From positions 41,964 to 105,963 of the forward strand of contig NZ_ATVL01000001.1 in assembly GCF_000420705.1 (NCBI RefSeq): 64,000 nucleotides of DNA, given 5' to 3'. The position numbers and the translations under genes were made by a program. The notes under the pieces were generated by a model. That model had not been told where the DNA came from, searched no databases, and saw only the letters and a program-made list of their open reading frames with translations. Numbering within the stretch: the stretch's first letter is position 1; each line of letters starts with the position of its first letter. This DNA is from Hymenobacter norwichensis DSM 15439 (GTDB lineage: Bacteria; Bacteroidota; Bacteroidia; Cytophagales; Hymenobacteraceae). Positions 37,332 through 54,621 of the stretch are shown here, piece after piece.

Positions 37332-37426
37332 CCTTACACCAAGACCCCGTCGCGTTTCGCGAAGCGGTACTGGGCACTGCCGCCACCTTGGGCTTGCGGC
37401 AGGACTTGATTGAGAAAGACTACTGG
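37328..37426 (+). pseudogene. AbiEii-type toxin gene, 5' fragment
   Basis: Thirty-three codons in frame (MTLHQDPVAFREAV to LIEKDYW) overlapping the antitoxin stop by 4 bp. The final EKDYW is the conserved N-terminal motif of AbiEii nucleotidyltransferases. The frame stops after Trp33 because a 17.2-kb element follows; downstream codons resume with VTWVLRN at 54622. Confidence 0.9.
37419..37426. repeat. Left 8-bp direct repeat (target duplication) ACTACTGG
   Basis: ACTACTGG immediately before the element's left inverted repeat; the same octamer follows the right end at 54614-54621. Confidence 0.8.
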
Positions 37427-37458
37427 CCTTGGTTAAAAGTTTGGTACAAAGGTTAAAC
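37427..37458 (+). repeat. Left 32-bp terminal inverted repeat
   Basis: Starts CCTTGGTTAAAAGTTTGG and ends GGTTAAAC; exact reverse complement of 54580-54611. Confidence 0.9.
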
Positions 37459-37560
37459 GGGCGGGGCCGCAGGAGACTCCCAGTCGAAGGCAAAAAGGGC
37501 CTCCAAATCGAAGGGGAGTGAATCTTTTAGGGCGTCGTCCGAGAAATCGAACTCGCCGTT

Positions 37561-37610
37561 CAGATTGATGTGCTGCCAGCTCGCCCGTGAGCTGGCAGTA
37601 CATCAATCTG
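37561..37610. repeat. Large hairpin near left end of element
   Basis: CAGATTGATGTGCTGCCAGC with TC pairs over 22 bp with the complement at 37589-37610 (one G-to-A difference), 6-base loop GCCCGT. No T-run. It could be a structured recombination (res-like) site or a transcript hairpin. The surrounding 37459-37731 shows no convincing gene. Confidence 0.55.
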
Positions 37611-37731
37611 CCACGGACTAGCGCTCGGCCGCCGGGGCATGAAGCAGCTACTGGTTGGGACAAAGGCAATTCCAACAGACGATTACGTTCTGCACCAGCC
37701 GTTTGCAAGGGCCTGCTTGCGTGGGTGGTCG

Positions 37732-38047
37732 CATGCCCGCCGTCGCCCGCTCATGGATACTCTCGCGGCCATACCCAGCCAGCGCGGCGAAGAGGCCCAA
37801 GACCGCCCGCCCGGCCGGGGTGGCCGTATCGATGCCTAGGTCCAGAGCGACGAAGCGGACCTGCCGGGCGTGCAGAGCGGCCACCACCTACATGATGTGG
37901 GTGCTGTTGCGGCCCAGCCGGTTCAGGCGGGCTAAAGTCACCGTGTCCCCGGCACGCAACGTGGCCAGCCGCTCGGTGAGCACCGGGCGCTGTGAGCGTG
38001 CCGCTGATTTTTTCCCAAATCAGGCGGTCTACGCCCGCGACCTTTAG
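37732..38047 (-). pseudogene. Serine resolvase remnant
   Basis: On the minus strand the pieces LKVAGVDRLIWEKISG, then (in a shifted frame) VLTERLATLRAGDTVTLARL and NRLGRNSTHIM, then after a stop codon VVAALHARQVRFVALDLGID and TATPAGRAVLGLFAALAGYG match the catalytic and dimer regions of small serine recombinases. The N-terminus is cut off just before the LysR promoter, there is one frameshift near 37990 and an in-frame TAG near 37888. This is a dead transposon resolvase. Confidence 0.8.
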
Positions 38048-38087
38048 TTGTCCATATCAAAATGTCACATCTGCGTACTTTGCCGCC

Positions 38088-38999
38088 ATGTCCGATTTCC
38101 GTCTGCGCGTATTTGCCGCTGTGGCCCGGCACCTGAGCCTGACCAAGGCCGGCCAGGAGCTGTTTGTGAGCCAGCCGGCCGTTACCAAGCACATCCGGGA
38201 GCTGGAAGCACAGTACGGCCAGCGCCTGCTGGAGCGGCGCGGCAACCGCGTGACCCTCACCGAGGCCGGCCGCCTGCTGCACGCCCACGCCGATGCCGCC
38301 GCCGCCGCTCAGCAGCAGCTGGAGGACCAGCTGCTGGCCCTGCGCGACCCCGACGAGGCCGCCGGCCGCCTGCGCCTGGGGGCCAGCACCACGCTGGCCC
38401 AGTACGTGCTGCCGGGCCTGCTGCCCGCCTTCCAGGCCCGCTACCCGCAGGTGCAGCTCTCGTTTCTGAACGCCAACTCCGAGCGCATTGCCGAGGCCCT
38501 GCTGCGCGGCGAGCTGGACCTAGGCTTCGTGGAGGGCCGCACCAAGAGCCACGACCTGCACTACGAGCTGCTGCTGCCCGACGAGCTGGTGGCCGTGCGC
38601 CGCGCCACACCCGGCGGCCCGCCCGCCGCCCCGCTGCCCCTGGCCGAGGCGCTGGCCCACCCGCTGGTGCTGCGCGAGCGGGGCTCGGGCACGCTGGAAA
38701 TCCTCGAATTTGCCCTGCGGGCGCAGCACATCAAGCTCAGCGCCCTGCCCGTGGCCATTTACCTGGACAATACGGAGGCCATCAAGCGCTACCTCGAAGC
38801 CGCGCCCACCGCCCTGGGCTTCGTGTCGCGCCGGGCCCTGGACCGCGAGCTGGCGGCCGGGCTGCTCGAAATCGTGCCCATTGCCGGGCTGCACTTGGCC
38901 CGGCAGTTCGAGGCGGTATCGGTGCAGGGACAGGTGCTGGCCCGGCCGGCGCAGCGCTTCCTGAGCTTCGTGCAGGGGCAGCTGAAGGGGGGCAAATAA
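38088..38999 (+). CDS. LysR-type regulator (CysB/Cbl-like)
   Basis: A 303-residue LysR regulator. The N-terminal helix-turn-helix is FRLRVFAAVARHLSLTKAGQELFVSQPAVTKHIRELEAQYGQRLL. The effector domain includes GRLRLGASTTLAQYVLPGLLPAFQARYPQV and LALRERGSGTLEILEF-like end regions. It lies just inside the element, after the resolvase remnant, and runs toward the YeiH gene, so it probably regulates it. The start is the ATG at 38088. Confidence 0.9.
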   Translation: MSDFRLRVFAAVARHLSLTKAGQELFVSQPAVTKHIRELEAQYGQRLLERRGNRVTLTEAGRLLHAHADAAAAAQQQLEDQLLALRDPDEAAGRLRLGASTTLAQYVLPGLLPAFQARYPQVQLSFLNANSERIAEALLRGELDLGFVEGRTKSHDLHYELLLPDELVAVRRATPGGPPAAPLPLAEALAHPLVLRERGSGTLEILEFALRAQHIKLSALPVAIYLDNTEAIKRYLEAAPTALGFVSRRALDRELAAGLLEIVPIAGLHLARQFEAVSVQGQVLARPAQRFLSFVQGQLKGGK

Positions 39000-39125
39000 A
39001 AAATGGTGATGCTGGATAACTATTCGGTATCCGCTGAAAGCACCACTTTATGAGCAGCTTACGTACCATTGCAGCGTAGTGCGGACCGGGTGGTTCGCCC
39101 ATCTTCACCCGACTTACTTATACTC

Positions 39126-39527
39126 ATGGAAAACACTCCGCAGCCCGCCCCAACCGATGCGCAACCCGCCGCCGAACCGGCCGCCCACGATGGCACCCCG
39201 CACTACGGCGACTTCGGCCACCCCGCCGACCCCACCGCGCCCCGCCACTACCAGGCCCCGACCAACGACTGCTCGAACGACAACCCCGACGAGTTCAGCG
39301 AATTTCGCGGCAAAAATGCCTCAGCCACCGAGCAATACTGCCTACCCGGTGCTATTGCTGACCCAAATTTGCAGCGCGGGCACGTCGAGCAAAACCAGCA
39401 CCCCGAAGCCATTGCCGCAGCCGAGGGGGGCAGCGACGCCGAAGAGCGCGCCGCCTACGCCCTCGACGACCCGCGCTACGCTGGCGGCGACGTATTCGAT
39501 TTGAAGGACGAGCAAACCGGCTTCTAA
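39126..39527 (+). CDS. Hypothetical Pro/Asp-rich protein
   Basis: About 133 residues, mostly polar and low complexity: PAPTDAQPAAEPAAHDGTPHYGDFGHPADPTAPRHYQAP, then NDCSNDNPDEFSEFRG and DDPRYAGGDVFDLKDEQTGF. It has no signal or membrane region. I recognise no family. It lies between the LysR and YeiH genes. Confidence 0.5.
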   Translation: MENTPQPAPTDAQPAAEPAAHDGTPHYGDFGHPADPTAPRHYQAPTNDCSNDNPDEFSEFRGKNASATEQYCLPGAIADPNLQRGHVEQNQHPEAIAAAEGGSDAEERAAYALDDPRYAGGDVFDLKDEQTGF

Positions 39528-39663
39528 GCCCTCAGGCCAGTAGTTCATCCGTCCAGCGGCCGGCTCGTACACCACGAGCCGGCCGCTGGCGTTTCCAGCC
39601 CTCGCGGCGGCCGGCTTGGCCACGCAAAACGGACGCGCCACCCTGGCTCGGCCCGGGCAATCA

Positions 39664-39706
39664 ATAACCTTTGGTTATGCAGGATAATACTATTGGATAA
39701 TCCAAT
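39664..39706. promoter_or_regulatory. Two palindromes upstream of YeiH gene (candidate LysR sites)
   Basis: ATAACC-TTT-GGTTAT at 39664-39678 and ATTGGAT-A-ATCCAAT at 39692-39706, both of the inverted-repeat length LysR proteins use, 50-90 bp upstream of the YeiH start and downstream of the divergent gene. Binding is inferred. Confidence 0.5.
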
Positions 39707-39721
39707 CGGTGGGCAACGCCG

Positions 39722-39729
39722 TATATTTG
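39722..39729 (+). promoter_or_regulatory. Bacteroidota -7 box TATATTTG
   Basis: TATATTTG matches TAnnTTTG and ends 25 bp before the YeiH start. Confidence 0.6.
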
Positions 39730-39754
39730 CCTCAGAAACAAACCCCTCCCGCTC

Positions 39755-40825
39755 ATGGCCCTCCCAGTTCAGCCCACGCCGCTTCAAGCTTCCACCCCGC
39801 TGCCCGCCCCTGCCCCGGCCGGGGAAACCGCCGCCCCCGAATTCAACGAAACCACCGGCTTCTTCCGCCACCTGCACACGCCCCGGGTGGTGTTCGGGCA
39901 GGACTTCACCTTGAAGCAGGTGGTGTTCGTGCTGTTCTTCGTGTTCTGCCTCACGCCCTGGGCCTCGCCGCCCATTGCCCTGGCGCTGGGCCTGCTGCTG
40001 GCCCAAACCATCGGCAACCCCTTCACCACGCAAACCAAGCAGGCCACGGCCAAGCTGCTCCAGTTCTCGGTTATCGGGCTGGGCTTTGGCATGAATGCCC
40101 ACGCGGCGGTGCAGGCCGGCAAGGAGGGCATCATTTTCACGGTGGTGTCCATCTTCGGCACGCTGCTGCTGGGCCTGGTGGTGGGCCGGTGGCTGGGGCT
40201 GGGCAAGCACGTGGTGCATTTGATTTCGTGCGGCACCGCTATTTGCGGCGGCTCGGCCATCGCGGCCATCGGACCGGTGCTGCGGGCCAAGGACGAGGAA
40301 ATGTCGGTGGCGCTGGGCACGGTGTTCGTGCTCAATGCCGTGGCCCTATTCGCCTTCCCGCCCATCGGCCACGCCCTGGCCATGACGCAGAACCAGTTCG
40401 GCCTGTGGTGCGCCATTGCCATCCACGACACCTCTTCGGTGGTGGGGGCGGCGGCGGCCTACGGCAACCAGGCCCTGGAAGTGGCCACCACCGTGAAGCT
40501 GGCCCGCGCCCTCTGGATTATCCCAATTTCCATCGGCACGGCCATGCTATTCAAGCAGAAGGGCGTGAAGGTGAAAATTCCCTACTTCATCTTTGGTTTC
40601 ATCGCCGCCATGCTGGTCAACACCTTTATTCCCGCCGCCAAGCCCCTGGGCCCGGTGATGGTGAACCTGGCCAAAATCGGCCTCACGGTGACGCTGTTCT
40701 TTATCGGCGCGGGCCTCTCGGCCAAGGTGGTGCGCTCGGTGGGAATAAAGCCCTACGTGCTGGGCATTCTGCTCTGGGTAGTGATTTCGACCGGCTCGCT
40801 CTACGTGATTCTGCACACGGTCTAG
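39755..40825 (+). CDS. YeiH-family putative sulfate/anion exporter
   Basis: A 356-residue membrane protein with about ten helices and YeiH hallmarks: NPFTTQTKQATAKLLQFSVIGLGFGMNA, HLISCGTAICGGSAIAAIGPVLRAKDEEMSVALGTVFVLNAVALFAFPPIG, and IAIHDTSSVVGAAAAYGNQALE. The family has been proposed to export sulfite or related oxyanions. The LysR upstream and the downstream sulfur-chemistry proteins agree with that. Confidence 0.9.
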   Translation: MALPVQPTPLQASTPLPAPAPAGETAAPEFNETTGFFRHLHTPRVVFGQDFTLKQVVFVLFFVFCLTPWASPPIALALGLLLAQTIGNPFTTQTKQATAKLLQFSVIGLGFGMNAHAAVQAGKEGIIFTVVSIFGTLLLGLVVGRWLGLGKHVVHLISCGTAICGGSAIAAIGPVLRAKDEEMSVALGTVFVLNAVALFAFPPIGHALAMTQNQFGLWCAIAIHDTSSVVGAAAAYGNQALEVATTVKLARALWIIPISIGTAMLFKQKGVKVKIPYFIFGFIAAMLVNTFIPAAKPLGPVMVNLAKIGLTVTLFFIGAGLSAKVVRSVGIKPYVLGILLWVVISTGSLYVILHTV

Positions 40826-40965
40826 CCGCCTGAACGGGGCAGAGCGGCCGAATGGTAGCGCTTGCTTTGCCCGATTTAACTAATTGACTGTCTGCATTCC
40901 GCAAAACAAGTTGTTTTGCGCGCTGGCTGGCCATTGCCGCCTGTTTCACCTCTCTCCTTGGCCTC

Positions 40966-42096
40966 ATGGAAATCACTCCCGACCCCTCGCCTCGGCTGCA
41001 GCCGGAAGACAAGCAGGCCTTCATCAAAATCGCTGGCCTGCTGACCTGGGTGATTGCCCTGATGGTGCTGGTAGTAGCCGTGACGGCCTACATCGTCGTC
41101 TTCAACCCCAAAACGCCCGACCTGCTGGCCGATGCCCCGGCCACGACGGCCGCCGCTGCGAGTGGGCCTGCGGCGGGCTTGCCTGACGTTGCCGGGGGGG
41201 CTGTGGGGAGCAAAACCAACTTCTTCCAGCCCGCCCGCTTCGTGCTCGACAGCGTGAAGCCCGACCCGGAGGGCCAGCTCATCCGCTACGGCCACGAGCT
41301 GATTGCCCACACCGCCCACTACCTCGGCCCGCAAGTGGCCAACCCGGCCCTGCGGCTGGCCGGCAGCAACCTGGCCTGCCAGAACTGCCACCTGCAGGCC
41401 GGCCAGAAGGCGTTTTCGGCCCCCTACGTGGGCATCTGGGGCATTTACCCCACCTACAAAGGGCGCGAGGATGCCATCAGCACCCTGGAGGACCGCATCA
41501 ATGGGTGCATGACGCGCAGCCTCAACGGCCGGCCCCTGCCGGTGGACGGCAAGGAGATGAAGGCCATCATCACCTACATGAAATGGCTGGGCCGCCAGGT
41601 GCCAGTGGGGGAGAAGGTGAAGGGCCAGGGTTTTGTTAAGTTCACCATGCCCAACCGCGAGGCGAATCTCGGGCAGGGCAAAATCGTCTTCGCCCAGCAG
41701 TGCACCAGCTGCCACGGAGCCAATGGCCAGGGCCGCCTCAACGGCACGCTGGCCGCCGATGGCTACCAGTACCCGCCGCTGTGGGGGCCCGACAGCTACA
41801 ACGACGGGGCCGGCATGCACCGCCTGCAAACGGCGGCCCGCTTTATCAAGGCCAACATGCCTTTCGGCGCCACGGCCGAGCACAGCATCCTCACCGATGA
41901 CGCCGCCTACGACGTGGCGGCCTACATCAACTCGCTGCCCCGCCCGCGCATGGCCCACCTGGAAAAGGACTACCCCAACCTGAAAAAGAAGCCCGCCGAC
42001 TGCCCTTACCCGCCTTACGCCGACCGGTTTACGCAGCACCAGCACCAGTTTGGTCCCTACGCGGCGATGGAAGCGGGCAAAAAGGGCGGCGAGTAG
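40966..42096 (+). CDS. Dihaem c-type cytochrome, thiosulfate dehydrogenase (TsdA)-like
   Basis: A 376-residue exported protein with an N-terminal membrane helix (TWVIALMVLVVAVTAYIVVF) and two haem-binding motifs, CQNCH and CTSCH. The first part has GHELIAHTAHYLGP, the INGCMTRSLNGRPLP segment and WLGRQVPVG, matching the TsdA thiosulfate dehydrogenase family. The second part is a class I cytochrome domain. It would oxidise thiosulfate or a similar reduced sulfur compound in the periplasm. Confidence 0.85.
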   Translation: MEITPDPSPRLQPEDKQAFIKIAGLLTWVIALMVLVVAVTAYIVVFNPKTPDLLADAPATTAAAASGPAAGLPDVAGGAVGSKTNFFQPARFVLDSVKPDPEGQLIRYGHELIAHTAHYLGPQVANPALRLAGSNLACQNCHLQAGQKAFSAPYVGIWGIYPTYKGREDAISTLEDRINGCMTRSLNGRPLPVDGKEMKAIITYMKWLGRQVPVGEKVKGQGFVKFTMPNREANLGQGKIVFAQQCTSCHGANGQGRLNGTLAADGYQYPPLWGPDSYNDGAGMHRLQTAARFIKANMPFGATAEHSILTDDAAYDVAAYINSLPRPRMAHLEKDYPNLKKKPADCPYPPYADRFTQHQHQFGPYAAMEAGKKGGE

Positions 42097-42170
42097 CCCC
42101 GCACCGATTTCCAGTTTCACCCCTTTCGTTTTCACCGCGCTGCTTCGGTGGTGCCCTTTCCCCAGTTGCC

Positions 42171-42665
42171 ATGAAACACCTGCTGCTGACCGCCGCGCTG
42201 CTCGCCGGCCTCACCCTCTCGGCCCGCGCCCAGACGCCCGCCACCCGCAACGCCACCGCCATGCATGACCGCGAAGCTTTTCAAAAAGGTGCCTTCCAAG
42301 GGGCCACGGCCGACCAGGCCCAGTACCATGTCATCTACCAGCTCGACAGCGACGACCCCAAGCTCATCCAGCAGACGCTGCGTAACATCGGCAACGCGCT
42401 GGAGGACAGCCGGCTTAAAGGCAAGCTCACCGTGGAGCTGATTGCCTTCGGCGGGGGCACCACGCTCTACCGCAAGGACCAGCCCTACGAGGCCCAGCTC
42501 ACGGCCCTCAAGCAGAAAGGCGTGATTCTGGCCCAGTGCCTGAACACGCTGAAGGAAAGGAAAATGAGCAAGGACGAGCTGCTGCCGCTGATTTCCTACG
42601 TGCCCAGCGGCAACGGCGAGCTTATTATCCGGCAGGCCCAGGGCTGGTCGCTGGTGCATCCGTAG
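42171..42665 (+). CDS. Exported DsrE-family protein
   Basis: A 164-residue protein with a signal peptide (LLLTAALLAGLTLSARAQ) and a DsrE/DsrF-like fold: YHVIYQLDSDDPKLIQQTLRNIGNALED, VELIAFGGGTTLYRK, and KGVILAQCLNTLKER with the family Cys. Cytoplasmic members carry sulfane sulfur; this secreted member probably acts in the periplasm with the adjacent TsdA-like cytochrome. This is an inference from context. Confidence 0.82.
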   Translation: MKHLLLTAALLAGLTLSARAQTPATRNATAMHDREAFQKGAFQGATADQAQYHVIYQLDSDDPKLIQQTLRNIGNALEDSRLKGKLTVELIAFGGGTTLYRKDQPYEAQLTALKQKGVILAQCLNTLKERKMSKDELLPLISYVPSGNGELIIRQAQGWSLVHP

Positions 42666-42718
42666 CGCCGGGCTCTCCGCTGCTTTTGTGCTTTTCTCCG
42701 CTTTCCTTACCCAACCCC

Positions 42719-43675
42719 ATGAAACCCCTTCCGCACCTGCTGCTGGCGCTGGCACTGGCCGCCCCGGCCGCCCTTTTCGCCCAGACCATGCCTATCCAAA
42801 AGCCCACGCCGCCCGAGCCGGCCCACCGCTTTGACCCGCCCTGGAACGCGCCGTTTCAGGCTGGAGTGCCCTTCACGGTGCCGGGCATCGACAACGCGCC
42901 CGACCTCTACGGCGACGTGGTGGACCCGCAGTTGGTGGTGTTTTTCGGGGGCAACCAGTTCATGGTGCTCGATGATTTGCTGAAGGAGTTCCGCAAGGCC
43001 CACCCCGAGTACGTGCGCATTTTCGTGGAAACGCTGCCGCCCGGCATCCTGGCTAAGCAGATTACGCAGGGCAGCCTGGTAGTAGGCAACCTGCGCATCG
43101 AGCTGAAGCCCGACGTGTACGCGGCCGGCAAAAACCGCATGGATATGACGCCGGAGTGGTTTGCCCGCACCACCAGCTACGCCCAGAACCGGCTGGCCAT
43201 CCTCGTGCGCCAGGGCAACCCCAAGAAGGTGACCAGCCTGCGCGATTTGGGCCGGCCCGAGGTGCGCGTGAGCATGCCTAACCCCGAATGGGAAGGCATC
43301 GGCAAGCGCATCGAGGAATCGTACGAGAAGGCCGGGGGCGCGGCCTTGAAAACGGCCGTGATGACGACCAAAGTGAAAGCCGGCAGCACTTACCTGACCC
43401 AGATTCACCACCGCCAGTCGCCCCTGCGGGTGCTCTACGACCAGTCCGACGCGGCCCCGGTGTGGTACACGGAGGCCTTTTATCAGAAAATGCTGGGCCA
43501 CCCGGTGGAAAGCGTGGCCATCCCGGCCAAGGAAAACATCATGGCCAACTACGTGGCCGGGGTGATGAAAGCCGCGCCCCACGCCAAGGCCGCCGAAGAC
43601 TTTGTGGCCTTCCTTAACAGCCCAGACGGGCAGGCCGTGTACCAGAAATACGGCTTTTTGCCGCCCGTTAAGTAA
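42719..43675 (+). CDS. Solute-binding protein (ModA-like), first orphan
   Basis: A 318-residue exported protein with signal (LLLALALAAPAALFAQ) and a substrate-binding fold: VVFFGGNQFMVLDDLLKEFRKAHPEYVRIF, NRLAILVRQGNPKKVTSLRDLGRPEVRVSMPNPEW and AEDFVAFLNSPDGQAVYQKYGF. The fold resembles molybdate/sulfate-type binding proteins (SBP_bac_11). No ABC permease or ATPase is next to it. The ligand is unknown. Confidence 0.85.
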   Translation: MKPLPHLLLALALAAPAALFAQTMPIQKPTPPEPAHRFDPPWNAPFQAGVPFTVPGIDNAPDLYGDVVDPQLVVFFGGNQFMVLDDLLKEFRKAHPEYVRIFVETLPPGILAKQITQGSLVVGNLRIELKPDVYAAGKNRMDMTPEWFARTTSYAQNRLAILVRQGNPKKVTSLRDLGRPEVRVSMPNPEWEGIGKRIEESYEKAGGAALKTAVMTTKVKAGSTYLTQIHHRQSPLRVLYDQSDAAPVWYTEAFYQKMLGHPVESVAIPAKENIMANYVAGVMKAAPHAKAAEDFVAFLNSPDGQAVYQKYGFLPPVK

Positions 43676-43688
43676 CGCGCTAATACCC

Positions 43689-44453
43689 ATGAAAACATCC
43701 CCGCTTACCCGGCTCCGCCGCTTCGCTCTATTGCTCATGTCTCCTGCTCTGCTCGCGGCCGCGCCGGCCGCCGCCCAAACCCTGCACGTGTACGGCCCCG
43801 GCGGCCCGGCCACGGCCATGAAGGAATGCGCCGCCGCCTTCACCAAACAAACCGGCCTGGACGTGGCCGTCACGGCCGGCCCCGAGCCCAAGTGGCTGGC
43901 CCAGGCGCAGCAGGACGCCGACCTGGTGTACGGCGGGGCCGAGTACATGCTCACCCAAACGGCGCTGGCCCACCCCGGCTTTATCGACGAAGCCAGCCGC
44001 ACCAGCCTCTACGCCCGGGAGTCGGCGGTGCTGGTGCGCCCCGGCAACCCGCTGCACATCAAGCGGCTCGAAGACCTGGCCCGGCCCGGCGTGCGCCTGC
44101 TCGACGTGAACGGGGCCGGCCAGATGGGCATGACCGAGGACATGGCCCGCAGCAGCGCCCTCATCAGCAACCTGCAGCACAACACCAAAACGTCGGTCAA
44201 AACCAGCGCCGAGGCCGTGGACCTCTGGCAGCAAAAGCCCCAGGACTACGACGCCTGGATAACCTATGCCTCCTGGCAGCCGCGCCTGCCCGGCTCGGCC
44301 CTCGTGCGCCTGCCCCGCGACCAGCGCGTGAGTCGGGGCACGCCCATTGCCCTCACCCAGCGCACCACGCAGGCCGCCGCGGCCCGGCAGTTCGTGGCCT
44401 TTCTGCAGTCGGCCGACGGGCACGCCATTTTCCGCCGCAACGGCTGGGAATAG
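43689..44453 (+). CDS. Solute-binding protein (ModA-like), second orphan
   Basis: A 254-residue exported protein, signal LLLMSPALLAAAPAAAQ, then LHVYGPGGPATAMKECAAAFTKQTGLDVAVTAGPEPKW and ADLVYGGAEYMLTQTALAHPG, with LVRPGNPLHIKRLEDLARPGVRLLDVNGAGQMG and ARQFVAFLQSADGHAIFRRNGWE. Same superfamily as the preceding gene, to which it is 13 bp away. Without a transporter it may deliver an oxyanion to an enzyme or act as a sensor partner. Confidence 0.83.
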   Translation: MKTSPLTRLRRFALLLMSPALLAAAPAAAQTLHVYGPGGPATAMKECAAAFTKQTGLDVAVTAGPEPKWLAQAQQDADLVYGGAEYMLTQTALAHPGFIDEASRTSLYARESAVLVRPGNPLHIKRLEDLARPGVRLLDVNGAGQMGMTEDMARSSALISNLQHNTKTSVKTSAEAVDLWQQKPQDYDAWITYASWQPRLPGSALVRLPRDQRVSRGTPIALTQRTTQAAAARQFVAFLQSADGHAIFRRNGWE

Positions 44454-44569
44454 GCCGGGCGTTGGCGGCCGGAAAGCAAACACGAAGAACGTCCTGCTTC
44501 GGCTGCGCTCAGCAGGACGGGCAAATGGCTCTTGGTTTTCACTATTCCACCTTGCTTTCCCGCATTCGC

Positions 44570-44776
44570 ATGGCTATTCCTTCGCTTCCGATGCCGGTGC
44601 CTAGCACCCCGTTGCCCGCCGCCCCCCCGGCCGACCACGAAACGCCGCACTGGCTGTTTCGCTACGTATTCAGCCAGGACCCCAAGACCATTGCCAAACA
44701 GTACCTGCTTACGGGCATGGCCTGGGCTCTGGTGGCGGGCACGCTTTCCACGCTGTTTCGCTTGCAGCTGGGCTAA
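44570..44776 (+). CDS. Short protein matching the N-terminus of cytochrome c oxidase subunit I
   Basis: A 68-residue protein. After a Pro-rich lead (MAIPSLPMPVPSTPLPA) it has LFRYVFSQDPKTIAKQYLLTGMAWALVAGTLSTLFRLQLG and stops. This closely resembles the first helix of COX1-type haem-copper oxidase subunit I (YVFSxDHKxIxxQYLxxG...LFRxQL), ending where the Trp-Pro of the full protein would come. It may be a COX1 fragment or a real single-helix small protein. Confidence 0.6.
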   Translation: MAIPSLPMPVPSTPLPAAPPADHETPHWLFRYVFSQDPKTIAKQYLLTGMAWALVAGTLSTLFRLQLG

Positions 44777-44841
44777 CAAAGCAAGTTTGAAAATACGGGC
44801 CGCCGTACCTGCGGCAACCGCTTCTCCATCATCCAAACCCC

Positions 44842-47091: not shown

Positions 47092-47100
47092 CCCACCCCC

Positions 47101-47382
47101 ATGCCGCTTACCCCCACCAACCCCCTCACCCTGTCGGACCGGCTGGCCCTGCAACGGACCCGGCTGGCCAATGAGCGGACCTTGCTCACCTACGTGCGCA
47201 CCAGCCTGGCACTGGTGGGCTTCGGGTTGGCGCTCCTTCAATTTCACCCCGAGCGGGGCGGCCGGTTGGGGTACTCCGCGCTGGCCGTGGCGGGATTGGT
47301 GCTGGCGGTAGGGCTGCTGCGCTTTCGGGCGCACCGCCGGGAGCTGGCGACCTGCCAGCTCCCGGCTGGCGGCGGTAGTTGA
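47101..47382 (+). CDS. DUF202 small membrane protein
   Basis: A 93-residue protein with the DUF202 pattern LQRTRLANERTLLTYVRTSLALVGFGLALLQF and a second helix (LGYSALAVAGLVLAVGLLRF) followed by RAHRRE. Function unknown. Confidence 0.88.
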   Translation: MPLTPTNPLTLSDRLALQRTRLANERTLLTYVRTSLALVGFGLALLQFHPERGGRLGYSALAVAGLVLAVGLLRFRAHRRELATCQLPAGGGS

Positions 47383-47431
47383 GCAACAAACACCCCCGGT
47401 GCTACCCGAGGCAAAAGCGTTTGCACCCATA

Positions 47432-47470
47432 AAAAAGGCCCCTGATGCGTCATGCACCAGGGGCCTTTTT
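47432..47470. terminator. Bidirectional terminator between convergent genes
   Basis: AAAAAGGCCCCTG and CAGGGGCCTTTTT form exact arms about 13 bp long; A-run and T-run flank both sides, between the DUF202 gene and the minus-strand propeller gene. Confidence 0.85.
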
Positions 47471-47484
47471 GGTCAGCAGCCGGC

Positions 47485-48957
47485 TTACGGCTGCGTGAGC
47501 GTGACCGCGCCGGCCGGGTTCTTGTCGCCGAGCACCACCACGGCAAAGCGCCCCGCCAGCCGCAGCCGAATCTGGTAGTAGGCGTTGACTTCGACCGCGC
47601 CCTCGGCATCGGTTTTGAAGGCGATAACCGGCTCCGGGGCCACCAGCGCGGTTTTATTGTCCGATAAGTATAAGGTGTAGTTCGTGTTCGGGGCCAGCCG
47701 CTTGAGAGCCAGAATCAACTCGTCCACGTCTTCTACCGGCCGGATAACGGCCACGCCGCCTACCCCGGGTACCGGCTGCGTACCGACGGGTACCAGGCGC
47801 AGGTTAACGGGCGCGACTGGCACAAAGGCTTCCAGGTTGCCGGTGCCGGGACTGCCACCGCCGGCCTTCACCACGTAAATGATGGCGTTCGGGTCTTGGC
47901 CACTGGGAGTTTCGCTCAGCTTGGTATTGGTTTTGGTATCGATGCTCACCAGCGCGTCACCGTATTCCAGGCCTACGTACACCTTGCTGCCGTCGCCATT
48001 GGGCCACACGCCGTGCGGATTGGGGCCCACCGGAATGGTGGCCACCAACTGGCGTTGGCGGGTGTATACCTTCACCGCGTTTTCGCCGCCCACGGTTACG
48101 TAGGCGAAGTCGCCGGCCGCCGCGCCGCTGAAGCGGGTGCCACCGCCGGGGCCGGCCAGGTTCACGTGGTTGGTGCCAGGGCCGGTGTCAATCACGCCCT
48201 CCACGGCGTAGGTCTGGGCATTCACCACCGTCACCTTGCCCACGTCCTTGTGCGTAAGCCATACCTGCTGGCCGTCGGCCGTTACGGCCAGGTTAGGGGA
48301 AAACTTGCTCACCACCGGTACGCGCGCTATTACTTCGCGGGTTTTCACATCCACCACATCCAGCTCGGCCGTGAAGGAGTGGTCCACGAAGGCCACCTTG
48401 CCGTCAGGCCGGAACACCACCATGCCGGGGCCCGGCGCAGTCTTGATGTTTTTCACGGCCTGCATTTTCTCCACGTCAATCACCGTTACGTAGTCGGCCC
48501 CGCGTACCGTCACCCAAAACTGCTTGCCGTCGGGCGTGAAAAAGCCCTCGTGGGGATTACGGTCCACATACACGGTGTTCTTAATGGCGTTGGTGGCCAG
48601 GTCGATGAACACCACCGCGTTGGTAAGGGTAGCAATGACGCCCAGCGTCTTGCCGTCGGGCGAGACGCCCATGCCGTGCACGTTGGTTTCCCGGTCGTAG
48701 AGCGGGCTCAGGAACTGGGGCCGCCCTTTACCCAGGCGAATCACGCCCAGCAGCCGGTTGGTGTTCGGGTCATGCACCGACACCGTGTTCGACGACTGGT
48801 CGGACGTGTACACCCGGTCGCTGGCGCTGGGCGCTTGAGGGCCGGGGTCGGCCGGCACTACCATGTCGGGCTGGGCGTCCTCATCGTTATTTTTCGAGCA
48901 AGCCCCGAGCAGCAGGGTGGCCGCAAGGACCAAAGTGGAGAAGTTAGTAATGCGCAT
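47485..48957 (-). CDS. YncE-like beta-propeller lipoprotein (first paralogue)
   Basis: A 490-residue lipoprotein (LLLGACSKNNDED). The repeated YVTN-type blade pattern YTSDQSSNTVSVHDPNTNRLLGVIRLG and similar stretches give a seven-bladed propeller, followed by a C-terminal domain with LAPNTNYTLYLSDNK. It resembles the 468-residue protein at 50406. Probably surface-located and sensing or binding a small molecule; no catalytic residues seen. Confidence 0.82.
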   Translation of the reverse strand: MRITNFSTLVLAATLLLGACSKNNDEDAQPDMVVPADPGPQAPSASDRVYTSDQSSNTVSVHDPNTNRLLGVIRLGKGRPQFLSPLYDRETNVHGMGVSPDGKTLGVIATLTNAVVFIDLATNAIKNTVYVDRNPHEGFFTPDGKQFWVTVRGADYVTVIDVEKMQAVKNIKTAPGPGMVVFRPDGKVAFVDHSFTAELDVVDVKTREVIARVPVVSKFSPNLAVTADGQQVWLTHKDVGKVTVVNAQTYAVEGVIDTGPGTNHVNLAGPGGGTRFSGAAAGDFAYVTVGGENAVKVYTRQRQLVATIPVGPNPHGVWPNGDGSKVYVGLEYGDALVSIDTKTNTKLSETPSGQDPNAIIYVVKAGGGSPGTGNLEAFVPVAPVNLRLVPVGTQPVPGVGGVAVIRPVEDVDELILALKRLAPNTNYTLYLSDNKTALVAPEPVIAFKTDAEGAVEVNAYYQIRLRLAGRFAVVVLGDKNPAGAVTLTQP

Positions 48958-49064
48958 GGAAGAATAAAATGGAGTGGAAGGGACGCTAAAAAACGAAGGC
49001 TGGCTCGTCGTGAAACGAGCCAGCCTTCGGACCGTTGCGGGGCTACGGCCTAAAATTCAGTGCC

Positions 49065-50294
49065 TTAGCGCGGGGCCGGGGTCAGCAGCTGGCCGTTGGC
49101 CACGGGGCTGATTTGCACGACTTGCGTGGTGCTGCCGGTTTTGCCCGCCGCGTCGGTTACGGCGGCTTTGATGGTGACGCTGGTTTTGCCGCCCAGCTGC
49201 AGGGTGCCTCCCACGCTCCAGCCGAAGGTGGTGCGCACGAAGCCGCTCGGGTCCAGCTCGCTGCCGGCCGTGTTGAAGACCGGGGCTAGGTTGCCGCCGG
49301 CCGGAATCACGTTGCCGTTGGGCTGGAGCAGGGGCACGTCGAAGGTGACTTTCAGGCCCGGCACGTAGCGGTTCACGCCGGCGTTGGATTGCGTCTTGTC
49401 TTCAATCGTGCCGCGGTCAGCGGCGGGCTTGCCAAAGGCACCGTCCCCGTTTTCGGCCACGTTGATGCCGTTGCGCGACTTATCGAGCGCCGACACCTGG
49501 ATGAAAAACAGCGCGCCGCTGGTGGGCGGGGCCGGCAGCACGCCCGCCGTCTGGATGCCGGGGCTGACGCTGCTGGGCGTGCGCGGGGCAATCATGGTCA
49601 CCGTGGGGCCGTCGGGGTTGTCCACCGTGCCGTAGGTGATGAGTTTGGGGGCGGGCGTCAGGGCCTCACCGCTGAAGGCCCCGTTGGGTCCGGGGCCTAC
49701 TTTCAGCAAGCGGGTGGCGGTGACCTTGCGGCCAGCGCGGTCCGTTACCGAAGTAGTCAGCGTGCAGCTGGTAGTACCGGCCGCCACCGACTCCAGCACG
49801 TGCCAGCTCACCCAGGTAGTCACGCCGGGGCCGGGCGTGTCGTCGGTGCCGGCGATGTTGAAGAGCGAGGCCAGGTTGGTACCCTTCGGGATGGTGCCGC
49901 CGTCGGGCTTAATCAGGTCCACGTCGAGGCTGGCCGCGAAGCCGGGCAGGTTCACGTTGGGCTGGCCTAGGGCGGCAGTGTTGCGGATGTTGAGGCTTTC
50001 CTTGGTGGGGATGGTGACCGTGTCCTTGGTCACGATTTCCAGGTTGATGGCGAAGCCCGTGCCGTTGTAGTCGGCCGTGGTGGCGTTGCCCTGCCGCCCG
50101 CCGAGCATGATGGTCGCGCCCTCCACCGGCGAGACGATGTTGAGCACCGGTGGCGCGCTGGTGTCGCCGATGGCTTCGTTGTCCTTCTTGCAGCCGCCGA
50201 GCAGCAGCGCACACGCCGCCACCGGCAGCAGAAACCGCTTGAGCGACTGCGCCCGCGAGCTGATGCCAGTGTGTTGATTGAAAATGGATTGCAT
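49065..50294 (-). CDS. Lipoprotein with duplicated Ig-like domains
   Basis: A 409-residue lipoprotein (CALLLGGCKKDN). Two homologous halves: VLNIVSPVEGATI...DLIKPDGGTIPKGTNLASLFNIAGTDD and VTMIAPRTPSSVS...PLLQPNGNVIPAGGNLAPVFNTAGSEL, each ending with a strand-rich block and VxxGPxxNG or ISPVANG. No known enzyme. Surface-adhesion-like, between two propeller genes on the same strand. Confidence 0.7.
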   Translation of the reverse strand: MQSIFNQHTGISSRAQSLKRFLLPVAACALLLGGCKKDNEAIGDTSAPPVLNIVSPVEGATIMLGGRQGNATTADYNGTGFAINLEIVTKDTVTIPTKESLNIRNTAALGQPNVNLPGFAASLDVDLIKPDGGTIPKGTNLASLFNIAGTDDTPGPGVTTWVSWHVLESVAAGTTSCTLTTSVTDRAGRKVTATRLLKVGPGPNGAFSGEALTPAPKLITYGTVDNPDGPTVTMIAPRTPSSVSPGIQTAGVLPAPPTSGALFFIQVSALDKSRNGINVAENGDGAFGKPAADRGTIEDKTQSNAGVNRYVPGLKVTFDVPLLQPNGNVIPAGGNLAPVFNTAGSELDPSGFVRTTFGWSVGGTLQLGGKTSVTIKAAVTDAAGKTGSTTQVVQISPVANGQLLTPAPR

Positions 50295-50405
50295 GTTGTA
50301 GGGTTGTGGTTACAAGTGAATTCAGTTTAGATTAGCTCGGCATTGCAGCAGGAATGGTTGTCCCGGCGGCCATGAATGGCCTTTGGGTGGGCGTCCAAAG
50401 GCGGA

Positions 50406-51812
50406 CTATTCGGCCACCAAAACGGGTTCGCTGTCAGCGGCTTTGGGCGCCACGATTACCCGCGAAAACGTTTTGCCGGATGTATTCAAATCCCCGCCCG
50501 CGATGCGCTGCACCGGCCCTAGCGCCTGGCCCATGGCCCCGCCTTTGGCGTCGGTGCGCACGGTGGTCAGGGCGTAGTCACGGGGGTAGGGTGCCTTGGT
50601 GCCGCTGGTCAGGAAGATGTCGTAGTCGGTGTTGGGCGTCAGGCCGCGCAGGGCGAAAGTGGCCAAATCCACCAGCCCTTCCGAGCGCAGCGTCATGGTG
50701 CCGGTGGCGGGGCCGGGCGTGGGCGGCTTCAGGGTGCGGACGATGGCGGGCTGGTCCACCAGCTGCCGGCCCAGGCCGGTGGCGCCGGCCGCGCCGGCCG
50801 GCACGGCGTTGGGCACGTACATCAGGGCCATCGGGGCCTGCCCGACTTTTATTTTGGCCAGCACTTTATTGCTCGCGGTGCTGATGGCCACGGCCGAGTC
50901 GCCGTTTTCCAGGCCCACGTACACCCGGCTGCCATCGCCCGAGGGCCAGATGCCGTGCGGCAGCGCCCCCACCGGAATGGTGGCCAGCTGCCGGAAGCCG
51001 GGGGCGCGGCTGTACACCTTCACCACGTCCTCGCCGCCCACCGTCACGTAGGCCAGCTTGCCGGCGGCCACGTCCACCGTGGCCACGTGGTTGGAGATGG
51101 GGCCGGTCGTCAGCACGCCGCTGATGGTGAGCGTCTTGGTATCCAGCACCGACACCTTGCCCACGTCCTTGTGCGTGAACCAGATTTGCTGGCCGTCCCG
51201 GGTAGGGAAGATATTGGGCGAGAAGGGGCTCACCACGGGGACCTTTTTGATGACTTTGTAGGTGGCCACGTCCACCACCGCCAGCTCGGGCGAAAAGCTG
51301 GAACACACGAAGGCGCGCTGGCCGTCGGGGCTGAAGGCAATCTGGCCGGGGCCGTTGGGCACGGGCACGCGGCGGGTTTCGCGCAGCGTGGCCACGTCGA
51401 TGACGGAGAGGTAGTCCTCGCCGCGCACCGTTATCCAGGCCTCCTTGCCGTCGGGCCGGAACGTAGCTTCGTGCGGGGCGCGGCCCACGTACACGCTGCC
51501 CCGGATGGCATTCGTAGCCGTCTCGATGAAAGTGACGTTATTGGAGCCCACCGACACCACGGCCAGCAATTTGTGGTCGGGCGAAGCGCCCAGGCCGTGC
51601 ACCAGCGCCTGCCCTTTGTAGAGCGCCGACAGCAAATCGGGCTGCGGCTTGCCCAGCACAATCTGGCCCAGCAGCTGGTTGTCGGCGGGGTCGATGACCG
51701 AAACGGTGTTGGAAATCTGGTCGGCGGTGTACACCCGGTCGCGGTGGCTCACGGCCTGGGCCGCAGCGGCGCTGGTAATAAGCAGCAGGCCGGGGAGAAG
51801 GGGAAATTTCAT
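50406..51812 (-). CDS. YncE-like beta-propeller exported protein (second paralogue)
   Basis: A 468-residue protein, signal LLPGLLLITSAAAAQ, and YVTN blades matching the other propeller (YTADQISNTVSVIDPADNQLLGQI, HEATFRPDGKEAWITVRGEDYLSVIDVATL). C-terminal domain LTPNTDYDIFLTSGTKAPYPRDYAL. About as long as its paralogue, so the pair likely arose by duplication inside the element. Confidence 0.82.
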   Translation of the reverse strand: MKFPLLPGLLLITSAAAAQAVSHRDRVYTADQISNTVSVIDPADNQLLGQIVLGKPQPDLLSALYKGQALVHGLGASPDHKLLAVVSVGSNNVTFIETATNAIRGSVYVGRAPHEATFRPDGKEAWITVRGEDYLSVIDVATLRETRRVPVPNGPGQIAFSPDGQRAFVCSSFSPELAVVDVATYKVIKKVPVVSPFSPNIFPTRDGQQIWFTHKDVGKVSVLDTKTLTISGVLTTGPISNHVATVDVAAGKLAYVTVGGEDVVKVYSRAPGFRQLATIPVGALPHGIWPSGDGSRVYVGLENGDSAVAISTASNKVLAKIKVGQAPMALMYVPNAVPAGAAGATGLGRQLVDQPAIVRTLKPPTPGPATGTMTLRSEGLVDLATFALRGLTPNTDYDIFLTSGTKAPYPRDYALTTVRTDAKGGAMGQALGPVQRIAGGDLNTSGKTFSRVIVAPKAADSEPVLVAE

Positions 51813-51908
51813 TTGGGATTGGGGAAAAGAACGTCATGCTGAGCATGTGGCGCATCAAGCCAGGAGCGCAGCCGTAGTCGAAGCATGACGGTTCTGATTG
51901 ATTGGGCG

Positions 51909-52352
51909 CTATTTGCCAGAACTCTGGCTCGCCACCGGATGCTGCTTCAGCCAGGCGGCCATCTGCTGAATCTCGACCTGCTGCTCGGCGATGATGCTTT
52001 GGGCGAGGCGGCGCAGGGCCGGGTCTTTGCCGTATAGCAGTTGCAGGCGGGCCATGTCCACGGCACCCTGGTGGTGGGGCAGCATCATGGCCGCGAAGCT
52101 GGCGTCGATGTCGTTGGGGTTGGCGCCGGTCATGCGGCGCATGCCCTCGTCCATCACCACCATCACCGAATCCATGCCGTGCTGGAAGGCGGCGACCGGG
52201 GTGCCCGGGGCGGCCATGCCGTGGTTCATGTGCATGCCGGCCATCCCGGCCATGCCCGGCATCGGTTTCGTGCCCGCCGGGTTATGTTGGGCGTGGGCTG
52301 TCAGGGCTCCGATGAAGGTGAGTGCTAGTAAAAAGAGGAAGGGTTTGGTCAT
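51909..52352 (-). CDS. DUF305 exported protein (third copy)
   Basis: About 147 residues with a signal peptide (FLFLLALTFIGALTAHAQ), a His/Met-rich front (GMAGMAGMHMNHGM), and a single DUF305 module: DASFAAMMLPHHQGAVDMARLQLLYGKD. In-frame ATG at 52370 is less likely because it precedes the signal. Likely a periplasmic metal-binding protein carried by the element. Confidence 0.85.
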   Translation of the reverse strand: MTKPFLFLLALTFIGALTAHAQHNPAGTKPMPGMAGMAGMHMNHGMAAPGTPVAAFQHGMDSVMVVMDEGMRRMTGANPNDIDASFAAMMLPHHQGAVDMARLQLLYGKDPALRRLAQSIIAEQQVEIQQMAAWLKQHPVASQSSGK

Positions 52353-52481
52353 GTCGTGCGCCGTTGCCACCTCATGAGCGGGGGGCTGGTGCGCTAACGG
52401 GCAACTCCAGAAGATGAACGCCCGACACGGGCCAACTGGACCTATTCCGGGGTGAACCGGCCTTTTGCGGCCCGGCCCGGC

Positions 52482-53264
52482 TCAGGCGAAGCGCTTGAGC
52501 AGCTGCTGCACCCCGGCGCTGTAGCTGCGCGAGGAGGTGACGTGCTGCCCGTTGGCCATGCGAAACAGGTACTCGCCGTGCGACCAATGCTTAAAATCCA
52601 CGATGTGGGCCGGGTTGACGATGCACGAGCGGTGAATGCGCAGGAACACGGCCGGGTCGAGCCGCTCGGCCAGCTGGCCCAGGGCCGTGCGCAGCGGGTA
52701 GTGCCTGCCGGCCGCGTGCAGCAGCACGCCGTTGCCGGTGGCTTCGAAGTAGCACACCTCGGCGGCCGGCACGAAGAAGCTGCGCTCGGGCAGCTTCACC
52801 AGAAACTGGTCCTGATAGTCGGGCACAGGCGGGGCGGTCCAGCTGTGCAGCAGGGCCGCCAGCGCGGGGCCGGGGGCCGGGCTTTGGCGCAGCAGCAACT
52901 GCGGCGGCAGCCGGCCCACGCAGTCGGCAAACCGGTCGGGGTCCAGCGGTTTGAGCAGGTAATCGACGGCGTGCAGGGCGAAGGCCTGCACCGCGTACTG
53001 GTCGTAGGCCGTCACGAACACCACCAGCGGGAGCGGCTGGCCGGCCGCCTGCAGCCGCCGCAGCACCTGCACGCCATCAAGGTCAGGCAGCTGCACATCA
53101 AGGAAAACGACGTCGTATGCGCCGGTGTGCAGGGCGGTGAGGGCCTCGGTGCCGTTGGCGGCTTCGCCCGTTACGGCCAGCGCCGGAAAATCGGCCAACA
53201 GTTCGCGCAGCAGGCTGCGCGCCAGGGGCTCGTCGTCGACCAGCAGCGTGCGGATGGGGCTCAT
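52482..53264 (-). CDS. LytTR-family response regulator
   Basis: A 260-residue response regulator: receiver domain with acidic LLVDDEPLARSLL, phospho-Asp in YDVVFLDVQLPDLDG, and Lys near LLKPLD, then a LytTR DNA-binding domain (RSFFVPAAEVCYFEATGNGVLLHAAGRHYPLRTALGQLAERLD...FLRIHRSCIVN). The start overlaps the kinase stop by 4 bp (ATGA), so the two genes are coupled. Confidence 0.92.
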   Translation of the reverse strand: MSPIRTLLVDDEPLARSLLRELLADFPALAVTGEAANGTEALTALHTGAYDVVFLDVQLPDLDGVQVLRRLQAAGQPLPLVVFVTAYDQYAVQAFALHAVDYLLKPLDPDRFADCVGRLPPQLLLRQSPAPGPALAALLHSWTAPPVPDYQDQFLVKLPERSFFVPAAEVCYFEATGNGVLLHAAGRHYPLRTALGQLAERLDPAVFLRIHRSCIVNPAHIVDFKHWSHGEYLFRMANGQHVTSSRSYSAGVQQLLKRFA

Positions 53265-54376
53265 GCGGGCTCTGGGGTAACGCCGGCCACCGCCCGCCGG
53301 AACGGGATGGACAAGCGCAGGCAGTAGCCGCACGCCGGGGCCGACTCCACCGCCAGGGCATAGTCCGGGCCGTAGAGCGTGGCCAGCCGGCTTTCCAGGT
53401 TGCGCAGGCCGATGCCCCGCGCGGCGGTGTCGGCCGCGCCCCGGCCGTTGTCCTGCACTTGCAGCAGCAGCCGGTCGCCCTGTTTTTCGGCCCGCACGGC
53501 CAGCTCGCCGGCCCCGGCGCGGGGCGCCAGGCCGTGGCGCACGGCGTTTTCCACCACTGGCTGCAGTAGCAGGGCGGGCAGCAGCGCCCCTTCGGTATCG
53601 GGGGCAATATTGTAGCGCACGGCCAGCCGGTCAGGGAAGCGGGTTTGCTCGATTTCCAAGTAGAGCCGGGTGAGGCGCAGCTCCTGTTCCAGGGTCACTT
53701 CCTGCTCGTCGGTACCTTCCAGCACCAGCCGCAGAAACTGGCTGAGCTGGGCCAGCATGCGCCGGGCGGCCTTCACGTCCTGGCTCATCAGGGCCGAGAC
53801 GGCGTTCATGGAATTGAAGAGAAAGTGCGGCTGGAGCTGCATTTTCAGGGCCTGCAGCTGGGCCTGCACCAGCTGGGTTTCGAGCTGGGCGGCCCGCACC
53901 CGGCCTTCGCGGTACCGCTCGCGGTACTGCACGGCGTAGGCGATGCAGAGCAGCATCCAGTAAATGGGCACCCAGCTGTTGGCGTTGGCCACGACCTCGG
54001 CGAGGGAAACCCGGCCCGGCACGGCCCCGCTGCCGTGCATCACGGCGGCGTACACGAGGCGGTAAGCAAGCGTGAGGACGTAGCTGGCCGCCGCGTGGGC
54101 CAGCAGGTGCCGCAGCCGGTGGCGGCTCTCGAGGAGGTTGAAGCGGGCCGCCAGGGCAAACACCACCGGCGTGAGCAGCCCCCAAATCAGGCCGTGCAGC
54201 AGGCGCCCGCCCAGGGCCTCGCGCCAGTCGGTGGGCGTACCGGCCGAGAGGTTCTGCACGAAAATCAGCAGCACCATGAACCCGCTGAACAGCAGCCACG
54301 CCAGGGCAATGGTGGCGCCGCTCACCAGGGGCGGGGTCTTCTGCGGCGTTTTCAAGGGCCCTGCGGTCGTGCTCAT
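53261..54376 (-). CDS. LytS-type sensor histidine kinase
   Basis: A 371-residue kinase with four predicted N-terminal membrane helices (IALAWLLFSGFMVLLIFVQNL etc.), a coiled-coil, the LytS/His_kinase domain with LQPHFLFNSMNAVSALM (phospho-His), and the ATPase part VVENAVRHGL and DNGRGA and GIGLRNLESRL. Partner of the LytTR regulator; the signal is unknown. Confidence 0.92.
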   Translation of the reverse strand: MSTTAGPLKTPQKTPPLVSGATIALAWLLFSGFMVLLIFVQNLSAGTPTDWREALGGRLLHGLIWGLLTPVVFALAARFNLLESRHRLRHLLAHAAASYVLTLAYRLVYAAVMHGSGAVPGRVSLAEVVANANSWVPIYWMLLCIAYAVQYRERYREGRVRAAQLETQLVQAQLQALKMQLQPHFLFNSMNAVSALMSQDVKAARRMLAQLSQFLRLVLEGTDEQEVTLEQELRLTRLYLEIEQTRFPDRLAVRYNIAPDTEGALLPALLLQPVVENAVRHGLAPRAGAGELAVRAEKQGDRLLLQVQDNGRGAADTAARGIGLRNLESRLATLYGPDYALAVESAPACGYCLRLSIPFRRAVAGVTPEPA

Positions 54377-54579
54377 GCGCTTTAAAGGTAGCGAAACCCA
54401 CCGCCACCGCGCCGTCCTGGCATTCAGAATGGCCTTTTTGGCGGGCCAATGGGCCTTCGGGCCGGTATTGGGCGAGCTCGATTACCCCGCCGGGGCTAAG
54501 CGCACGGGAAGTTTGTGAAAAAGGTTAGCCGTAGCAGGCGCGGGCCTCCCACCGAGAGTCAGACAATTCTCACTAGCCT

Positions 54580-54611
54580 GTTTAACCTTTGTACCAAACT
54601 TTTAACCAAGG
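54580..54611 (-). repeat. Right 32-bp terminal inverted repeat
   Basis: Starts GTTTAACCTTTGTACC and ends AACCAAGG; exact reverse complement of 37427-37458. Confidence 0.9.
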
Positions 54612-54613
54612 CC

Positions 54614-54621
54614 ACTACTGG
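54614..54621. repeat. Right 8-bp direct repeat (target duplication) ACTACTGG
   Basis: Second copy of the octamer present before the left inverted repeat; it overlaps the codons for Tyr-Trp of the toxin. Confidence 0.8.

Follow-up and report, generated by a model that had tools for sequence, protein, structure and literature searches.

Introduction

Non-autonomous derivatives of Tn3 transposons are already known. Mobile or minimal insertion cassettes (MICs) of Tn3 type occur, for example, on Xanthomonas plasmids, and the passages of PMC7157771 that deal with them describe passenger genes within Tn3-type ends, no working transposition genes and autonomous relatives nearby. For TIMEs and their derivatives, the relevant part of PMC4133298 gives target duplications of 5 or 6 bp and captured non-autonomous elements of 262 to 3892 bp; in the corresponding part of PMC13367494, TIME-COMPs carry resistance genes and MITEs measure 50 to 500 bp. 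Here we describe a 17,189-bp element of Hymenobacter norwichensis DSM 15439, located in a stretch of 64,000 nucleotides of contig NZ_ATVL01000001.1 (positions 41,964 to 105,963 of the forward strand). This whole stretch is called the window, and coordinates are window positions unless stated otherwise. The element is very probably a Tn3-type transposon whose own transposase gene was deleted and for which intact Tn3 elements sharing its ends likely provide the transposase in trans.

Like the MICs of that account, the element has autonomous relatives and carries passenger genes enclosed by transposon ends, but lacks a transposase that works. Unlike them, it is 17 kb long with at least 18 cargo genes, retains relics of tnpA and tnpR, has GGCC ends and 6-bp duplications, and belongs to another phylum. 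The likeness to TIME-type elements, as those sources present them, lies in the missing transposase, the Tn3-type ends, the probable mobilization in trans and a duplication within the 5- to 6-bp range. It differs from them in that 17,189 bp with cargo is not a miniature size, the element is not bounded by two miniatures as far as tested, and no 5-bp duplication was seen. Compared with these known elements it is a larger variant, in a clade that has GGCC ends, a constant 6-bp duplication and two such satellites. No paper on Hymenobacter Tn3 transposons, nor one on 6-bp duplications in this clade, was found among the papers listed by literature searches, although such papers may exist.

Ends and target duplication

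The element occupies positions 37425-54613 and is delimited by the following features.

37419..37424, no strand: target duplication ACTACT, left copy (sequence; 6-bp rule from the end-pair survey)
37425..37458, plus strand: left terminal inverted repeat, 34 bp exact or 38 bp with one mismatch (sequence, repeat search)
54464..54613, no strand: right end segment, finishing in the right inverted repeat (54580-54613); a divergent variant is present in genomes G028 and G020
54614..54619, no strand: target duplication ACTACT, right copy (sequence)

The end repeats were the longest of 20 inverted pairs in 20 kb and also the first listed. An earlier note, made from the letters of this DNA alone, had reported exact 32-bp inverted repeats flanked by an 8-bp direct repeat. 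The repeats are real, but 34 bp match exactly and the start had been set 2 bp too far in. Likewise, ACTACTGG does stand on both sides, but its GG are the first bases of the left repeat, and the duplication is ACTACT.

The duplication length was examined in 35 plus/minus end pairs, which came from the window and from 39 loci that had mostly been chosen for two ends lying near each other. The pairs had at most 4 mismatches and were less than 20 kb apart, and duplicates with the same flanks were dropped. An exact 6-bp duplication flanked 20 of the 35 pairs, and a 5-, 7- or 8-bp duplication flanked none. Random re-pairing of the flanks gave a mean of 0.9 and a maximum of 5 in 2000 trials. The 20 duplications represent 19 distinct sites, since two of them are one site. 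The first base was A at 17 and the last base T at 16 of these 19 sites, in loci with about 19% A and about 19% T, indicating a target preference of A-N4-T. An 8-bp duplication was also rejected on the ends themselves: five ends in the element's own genome begin with GGCC, and a sixth, degenerate end with 8 mismatches does not. Terminal repeats of about 38 bp are a feature of the Tn3 family, and those of the element have this length with one mismatch; their recognition by TnpA is predicted. A 5-bp duplication is usual in that family but not obligatory; here it was 6 bp at all 19 duplicated sites.

Miniature elements of 357 to 368 bp with perfect copies of both ends were observed at L049 1454-1810, L048 1651-2018 and L053 1681-2048. 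The one in L049 has a 6-bp duplication (GATGCA); those in L048 and L053 have none.

Assignment to the Tn3 family

With 3 mismatches allowed, 77 of the 120 genus genomes contained the element end, whereas none contained a reversed control pattern. It was present in 79 of 204 genomes of the family, that is, in 2 of 84 outside the genus, both from one of five other genera. Among named plasmids, the pattern matched 28 records, all from Hymenobacter. The possibility that no other genome has these ends, against which a search had been advised in the earlier note, is thereby removed.

An autonomous relative (L062) is a 6,126-bp element on plasmid NZ_CP095059.1 of Hymenobacter sp. 5516J-16. Its ends are the same, with 0 and 1 mismatch when compared with the 32-bp consensus, and it has a duplication of the same length (AGGAGT), a Tn3-family transposase and a resolvase, so that a transposase-bearing element of the kind suggested for a search does exist. 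Its TnpA (P0001) matches DDE_Tnp_Tn3 (PF01526) at 1.6e-118 and NCBIfam transpos_Tn3 (NF033527) above the cut-off, and its intact tnpR matches PF00239. Both genes are homologous to the relics of the 17.2-kb element at 84%. Unlike that element, L062 has intact tnpA and tnpR, other cargo and a length of 6.1 kb. The alignment of the cognate TnpA with the TnpA of Tn4430, for which structures have been solved (7qd4-7qd8), spans residues 592-997 in the catalytic region and takes in the SSDG and HxTDT blocks. The ends of Tn4430 presumably differ from those of the element. The resolvase of Tn4430 is TnpI, as stated where PMC7157771 treats that transposon. The ends had not been recognized as belonging to a known family; the family is Tn3, and assignment of the element to it, as a putative non-autonomous deletion derivative, is supported.

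TnpA candidates were scored across the 120 genomes, at most 6 per genome. Among those scored, at least 13 genomes had a TnpA that is nearly full-length, free of stops and identical to P0001 at 75% or more. A GGCC end was found nearby in 16 of 17 loci with a TnpA of at least 75% identity (10 mismatches allowed; some of these TnpA sequences are cut or have stops); the two ends of the 17th lie at the edges of its contig. Eleven loci with a TnpA of 38-39% identity have other ends; one of these (L086) also shows the end of an adjoining 17.2-kb element. TnpA clade and end type thus appear to go together.

Loss of the transposase gene

Relics of a Tn3 core are located at the left end of the element.

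37456..37707, minus strand: tnpA relic, 3' end, TnpA residues about 924-1020, with one TGA and two TAG inside (TnpA comparison)
37708..37732, no strand: deletion junction, flanked by the relics of tnpA and tnpR; the autonomous core has about 2,990 bp here that the element lacks
37733..38050, minus strand: tnpR relic (serine resolvase), identical to intact tnpR at 83-84% of DNA positions; lacks the start, the end and the putative res region upstream

Element positions 1-283 match the tnpA end and positions 309-626 the tnpR of L062 and L044 at 84-86% identity; against L057 the values are 78% and 83%, respectively. The roughly 2,990 bp between the relics, comprising most of tnpA and the end of tnpR, are gone, and 25 unmatched bases stand in their place. 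The tnpA relic consists of 97 residues with three stops and is C-terminal to what we take to be the catalytic blocks. The element had been said to contain a decayed serine resolvase as its only such gene and no transposase. The resolvase relic is there; the tnpA relic beside it had been missed and is all that the element keeps of tnpA. The conserved stretch upstream of tnpR, which is presumed to contain res, was unmatched in the element, although a divergent site is possible; the element appears to have no res.

No intact cognate tnpA was found in the element's own genome, where the relic was the only TnpA match among 9 of 9 candidates scored. Nor was a transposase seen in the frames read by eye between a second pair of ends in that genome (L007). 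No transposase family of Pfam was found in the 16 cargo proteins scanned, from which the frames 39129-39527, 44570-44776 and 44842-45129 were left out.

Seven insertion sites of one deleted form

Among the candidates scored, tnpA relics with an identical set of stops occurred in 8 of the 120 genomes, namely G000 (the window), G003, G021, G028, G089, G109, G112 and G117. A ninth copy, in G119, was found by the cargo search; both of its ends were seen, and one alignment runs through the junction. The deleted form is thus present in 9 of 120 genomes at 7 sites. Perfect and mutually different 6-bp duplications flank it at six of them: ACTACT (window), AAGGCT, AACCGT, AATACT, AACCTT (one site common to G109, G112 and G117) and ACTGTT (G119). 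The junction, with the same 25 unmatched bases, is common to the 8 aligned copies, which lie at 6 of the 7 sites. One shared junction at many sites indicates that the deletion of tnpA came before the spread, and the presence of an already deleted form at seven sites indicates that a transposase from elsewhere was required. We infer movement in trans from this distribution. The earlier note had left open whether the transposase was lost or the element is mobilized in trans; both fit, given the internal tnpA deletion and the seven sites of the deleted form.

The element is also present at about 100% identity in the Hymenobacter sublimis plasmid NZ_CP095850.1, where it spans the start of the record. 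Among 8 hosts (G119 was left out), the identity of the element was 94.9-99.98% versus 82.2-92.3% for the rpoB region, and the element value was the higher one in 28 of 28 pairs. The copies of the window and G109, at different sites, are 99.98% identical. Element identities above those of the rpoB region indicate that the spread crossed species.

The window contig encodes a Rep_3-type replication gene, indicating that it is probably a plasmid. With an intact cognate TnpA in one of nine hosts among the candidates scored, movement would depend on a helper met elsewhere, likely a transient helper on another plasmid. The transposase of the 38-39% clade that lies beside the element in G112 and G117 was also considered as the helper; this is unlikely, because that clade has other ends.

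Genome G020 has the cargo (element positions 618-17039) at 95.7% identity without the Tn3 core. On the right, this copy has the variant form of G028 (98%) and extends into the inner portion of the right repeat, where it stops. The idea that G020 holds a pristine, transposon-free island was dropped, since its right side runs into a broken repeat; the copy looks like a truncated element. The divergent right-end variant was observed at L043 1296-1450 (G028) and L182 1-260 (G020), which are 98% alike.

Proposed mechanism and alternative explanations

In the proposed mechanism, a helper TnpA from an intact relative would bind both ends of the element and join it to a target by 6-bp staggered cuts, with A-N4-T preferred. 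Paste-and-copy replication, the replicative route known for Tn3, would then give a cointegrate. As tnpR and the presumed res are gone, resolution of the cointegrate would rely mainly on homologous recombination of its two 17-kb copies. Transfer between species would take place on plasmids, and the cargo would be retained through a benefit to the host.

If an autonomous element had instead been inserted at each site and had lost tnpA later and separately, the copies would be dead fossils. The stops in the tnpA relic and the failure to find an intact cognate tnpA in the own genome agree with such a history. It is nevertheless very improbable, because the 8 aligned copies at 6 of the 7 sites have the same junction and the same 25 unmatched bases, the 8 relics listed have the same stop set, the copy at the seventh site (G119) aligns in one piece through the junction, and copies at different sites reach 99.98% identity (window versus G109). 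Hardly more probable is spread by homologous recombination or plasmid exchange in place of transposition. The exact coincidence of the boundaries with the repeats, and perfect 6-bp duplications that differ among 6 sites, both argue for transposition, although the common site of G109, G112 and G117 speaks for exchange and the patchy divergence of the cargo genes and the right-hand end suggests recombination. For the site of these three genomes, exchange does hold as an added route.

An origin as a composite, with the cargo enclosed between a decayed Tn3 element on the left and a TIME-like miniature on the right, is compatible with movement in trans and is an unlikely but real possibility. The left end has 626 bp of Tn3 core while the right end has about 150 bp without core, and miniatures of 357-368 bp with these ends exist. 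Beyond the repeat region, however, the right 150 bp were matched by no miniature or other transposon in 188 loci and the plasmid collection, where full matches were copies of the element itself. The odds are further lowered by G020, which is better read as a truncated element than as a transposon-free island. Instead of the two complete flanking insertion sequences of a composite transposon, the two ends of the element share repeats only.

Several observations weigh against a Tn3-type element that moves in trans. The ends of Tn3 elements usually start with GGGG and here start with GGCC, and the usual target duplication is 5 bp and not 6. No duplication was found at 15 of the 35 end pairs, the second pair of the own genome (L007) among them; several of the 15 are nested or rearranged pairs. 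A locus with a TnpA fragment (L089, 80%) has one end of each clade. Among the nine hosts, an intact cognate TnpA was found only in G117, within the candidates scored (6 of 9-13 in G003, G021, G112 and G117). Three of the nine genomes are at one site, which leaves seven sites, and the site in G089 was seen from one side only, because a contig edge cuts the copy. Finally, the G028 copy differs in structure, with a divergent variant in its last 150 bp, which suggests recombination at that end.

A second satellite

A different tnpA relic (residues 2-144, about 64%) was present in at least 11 of the 120 genomes among the candidates scored. The loci from all 11 genomes contain cargo related to that of the 17.2-kb element, mostly 85-91% alike. 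This second transposase-less derivative is about 10.3 kb long where both ends were seen, and 11.7 kb in G002. Exact 6-bp duplications flank it at four sites (ATCTTC, AGAAGT, AATGGT and ATAAAT). Six copies are 99.2-100% identical versus 81-93% for the rpoB regions (15 pairs). Other copies are less clean: the copy in G002 has two different flanks, that in G059 has one damaged end, and those in G024, G075 and G107 show one end only in the sequence fetched. The tnpA relics of the two derivatives are at opposite ends, and no tnpR match was found in the copy L058 of the smaller one; these two features suggest that the two satellites arose independently.

A broader reading, which we offer tentatively, is that these are Tn3 "satellite" transposons of Hymenobacter-type bacteria. 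Tn3 derivatives without a transposase may have taken up one metabolic island on at least two independent occasions, giving the 17.2-kb form with its C-terminal tnpA relic and the form of about 10.3 kb with its N-terminal one. These are present in more sampled species (20) than the intact cognate helper (13), as if transposase loss were favoured for large beneficial cargo.

The second end pair of the own genome (L007 3042-9930, C13:122041-128930) consists of the same ends at a distance of 6.9 kb, and a target duplication is absent. Read by eye, its content includes a sensor kinase and an aldo/keto reductase-like gene. It is perhaps a rearranged second satellite.

Cargo

The cargo genes of the 17.2-kb element were annotated as follows.

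38042..54463, no strand: cargo island, element positions about 618-17039 (stretches common to G020, 618-17039, and the 10.3-kb satellite, 647-17037)
38088..38999, plus strand: LysR-type regulator (Pfam)
39755..40825, plus strand: YeiH-type putative sulfate exporter (PF03601; Pfam; TIGR00698 below its cut-off)
40966..42096, plus strand: c-type cytochrome with SoxA/TsdA domain (Pfam; SoxA below its cut-off in the second, NCBIfam, scan)
42171..42665, plus strand: DsrE family protein (Pfam)
42788..43675, plus strand: substrate-binding protein, SBP_bac_11 (Pfam)
43737..44453, plus strand: substrate-binding protein, SBP_bac_11 (Pfam)
45133..45783, plus strand: TMEM175 family protein (Pfam)
46429..47091, plus strand: MBL-fold hydrolase (Pfam)
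47101..47382, plus strand: DUF202 protein (Pfam)
47485..48957, minus strand: YncE-like beta-propeller 1 (Pfam)
49065..50294, minus strand: 409-residue protein, no family in the Pfam and NCBIfam searches
50406..51812, minus strand: YncE-like beta-propeller 2 (Pfam)
51909..52370, minus strand: DUF305 protein, CopM-like, 89.8 bits versus a cut-off of 90 (Pfam, NCBIfam)
52482..53264, minus strand: LytTR response regulator (Pfam)
53261..54376, minus strand: histidine kinase (Pfam)

The LytTR regulator and the histidine kinase make up a two-component system. From the gene families, we would guess at a role in the oxidation or export of sulfur compounds. Eighteen cargo genes were compared with those of six other 17.2-kb copies and one 10.3-kb copy. 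No stop or frameshift was found in any aligned gene; G089 and the 10.3-kb form lack some genes or have them truncated. Most comparisons gave a nonsynonymous divergence (dN) below the synonymous divergence (dS), and those that did not involved genes that are small or almost identical. The frame of the 409-residue protein is open in the six other 17.2-kb copies. The gene of beta-propeller 1 is 98.8-100% identical in some copies and 84% in G021, G028 and G089, in elements that are otherwise similar, which is likely due to recombination between cargo variants.

The plasmid of GOD-10R has a longer island that is 82.5% similar, with no bounding end pair along 31.5 kb of sequence; parts of it are also present in G036 and G041. 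The cargo was probably captured from an island like that on the GOD-10R plasmid. The earlier note had argued that cargo genes lying as normal neighbours elsewhere would speak against a transposon. This is partly the case on the GOD-10R plasmid and, for a part, in G036 and G041, and with seven insertion sites the transposon is not refuted by it. In L183 (G041) and L184 (G036), the cargo island is directly adjoined, at element position 652, by a transposon that belongs to the 38-39% TnpA clade and has ends of its own. In the window element, this border is within about 30 bp of the junction of Tn3 core and cargo. The cargo border near position 652 may attract Tn3 elements.

Target gene and its surroundings

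Two host genes adjoin the element.

36585..37331, plus strand: AbiEi-like antitoxin, upstream of the insertion (Pfam AbiEi_4)
54614..54947, plus strand: 3' part of the interrupted abiEii, with a second cut at 54948 (Pfam AbiEii, 1e-15)

The left flank of the element matches 25 of the 120 genomes. In six (L115 and L120-L124) of 13 loci read on one strand, abiEii is uninterrupted, with an open frame that passes through (I/V)EKDYWVTWVLRNLADS without a break. The insertion of a large element in abiEii, as first proposed, is borne out by the AbiEii match on the right, the AbiEi_4 match on the left and these six intact relatives, which are also the uninterrupted homologues that were to be looked for.

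The second cut in the abiEii remnant, an addition to what had been noticed before, is due to a 445-bp miniature element at 54948-55392. It has 38-bp ends (GGGG...TAAG) of another Tn3-like clade and no clear target duplication. This end type is present in 14 of the 120 genus genomes, and in G009 it lies around a Tn3-type transposase match.

Significance

A 17-kb element that has spread across species would escape a mobile-element search based on transposase genes. The intact helpers, miniatures, two cargo satellites and duplicated sites form a natural set in which the action of Tn3 transposases in trans on long DNA could be tested. The same set bears on resolution without tnpR and res, and on whether transposase loss is selected. 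The constant 6-bp A-N4-T target is a useful contrast to the Tn3 elements with 5-bp duplications.

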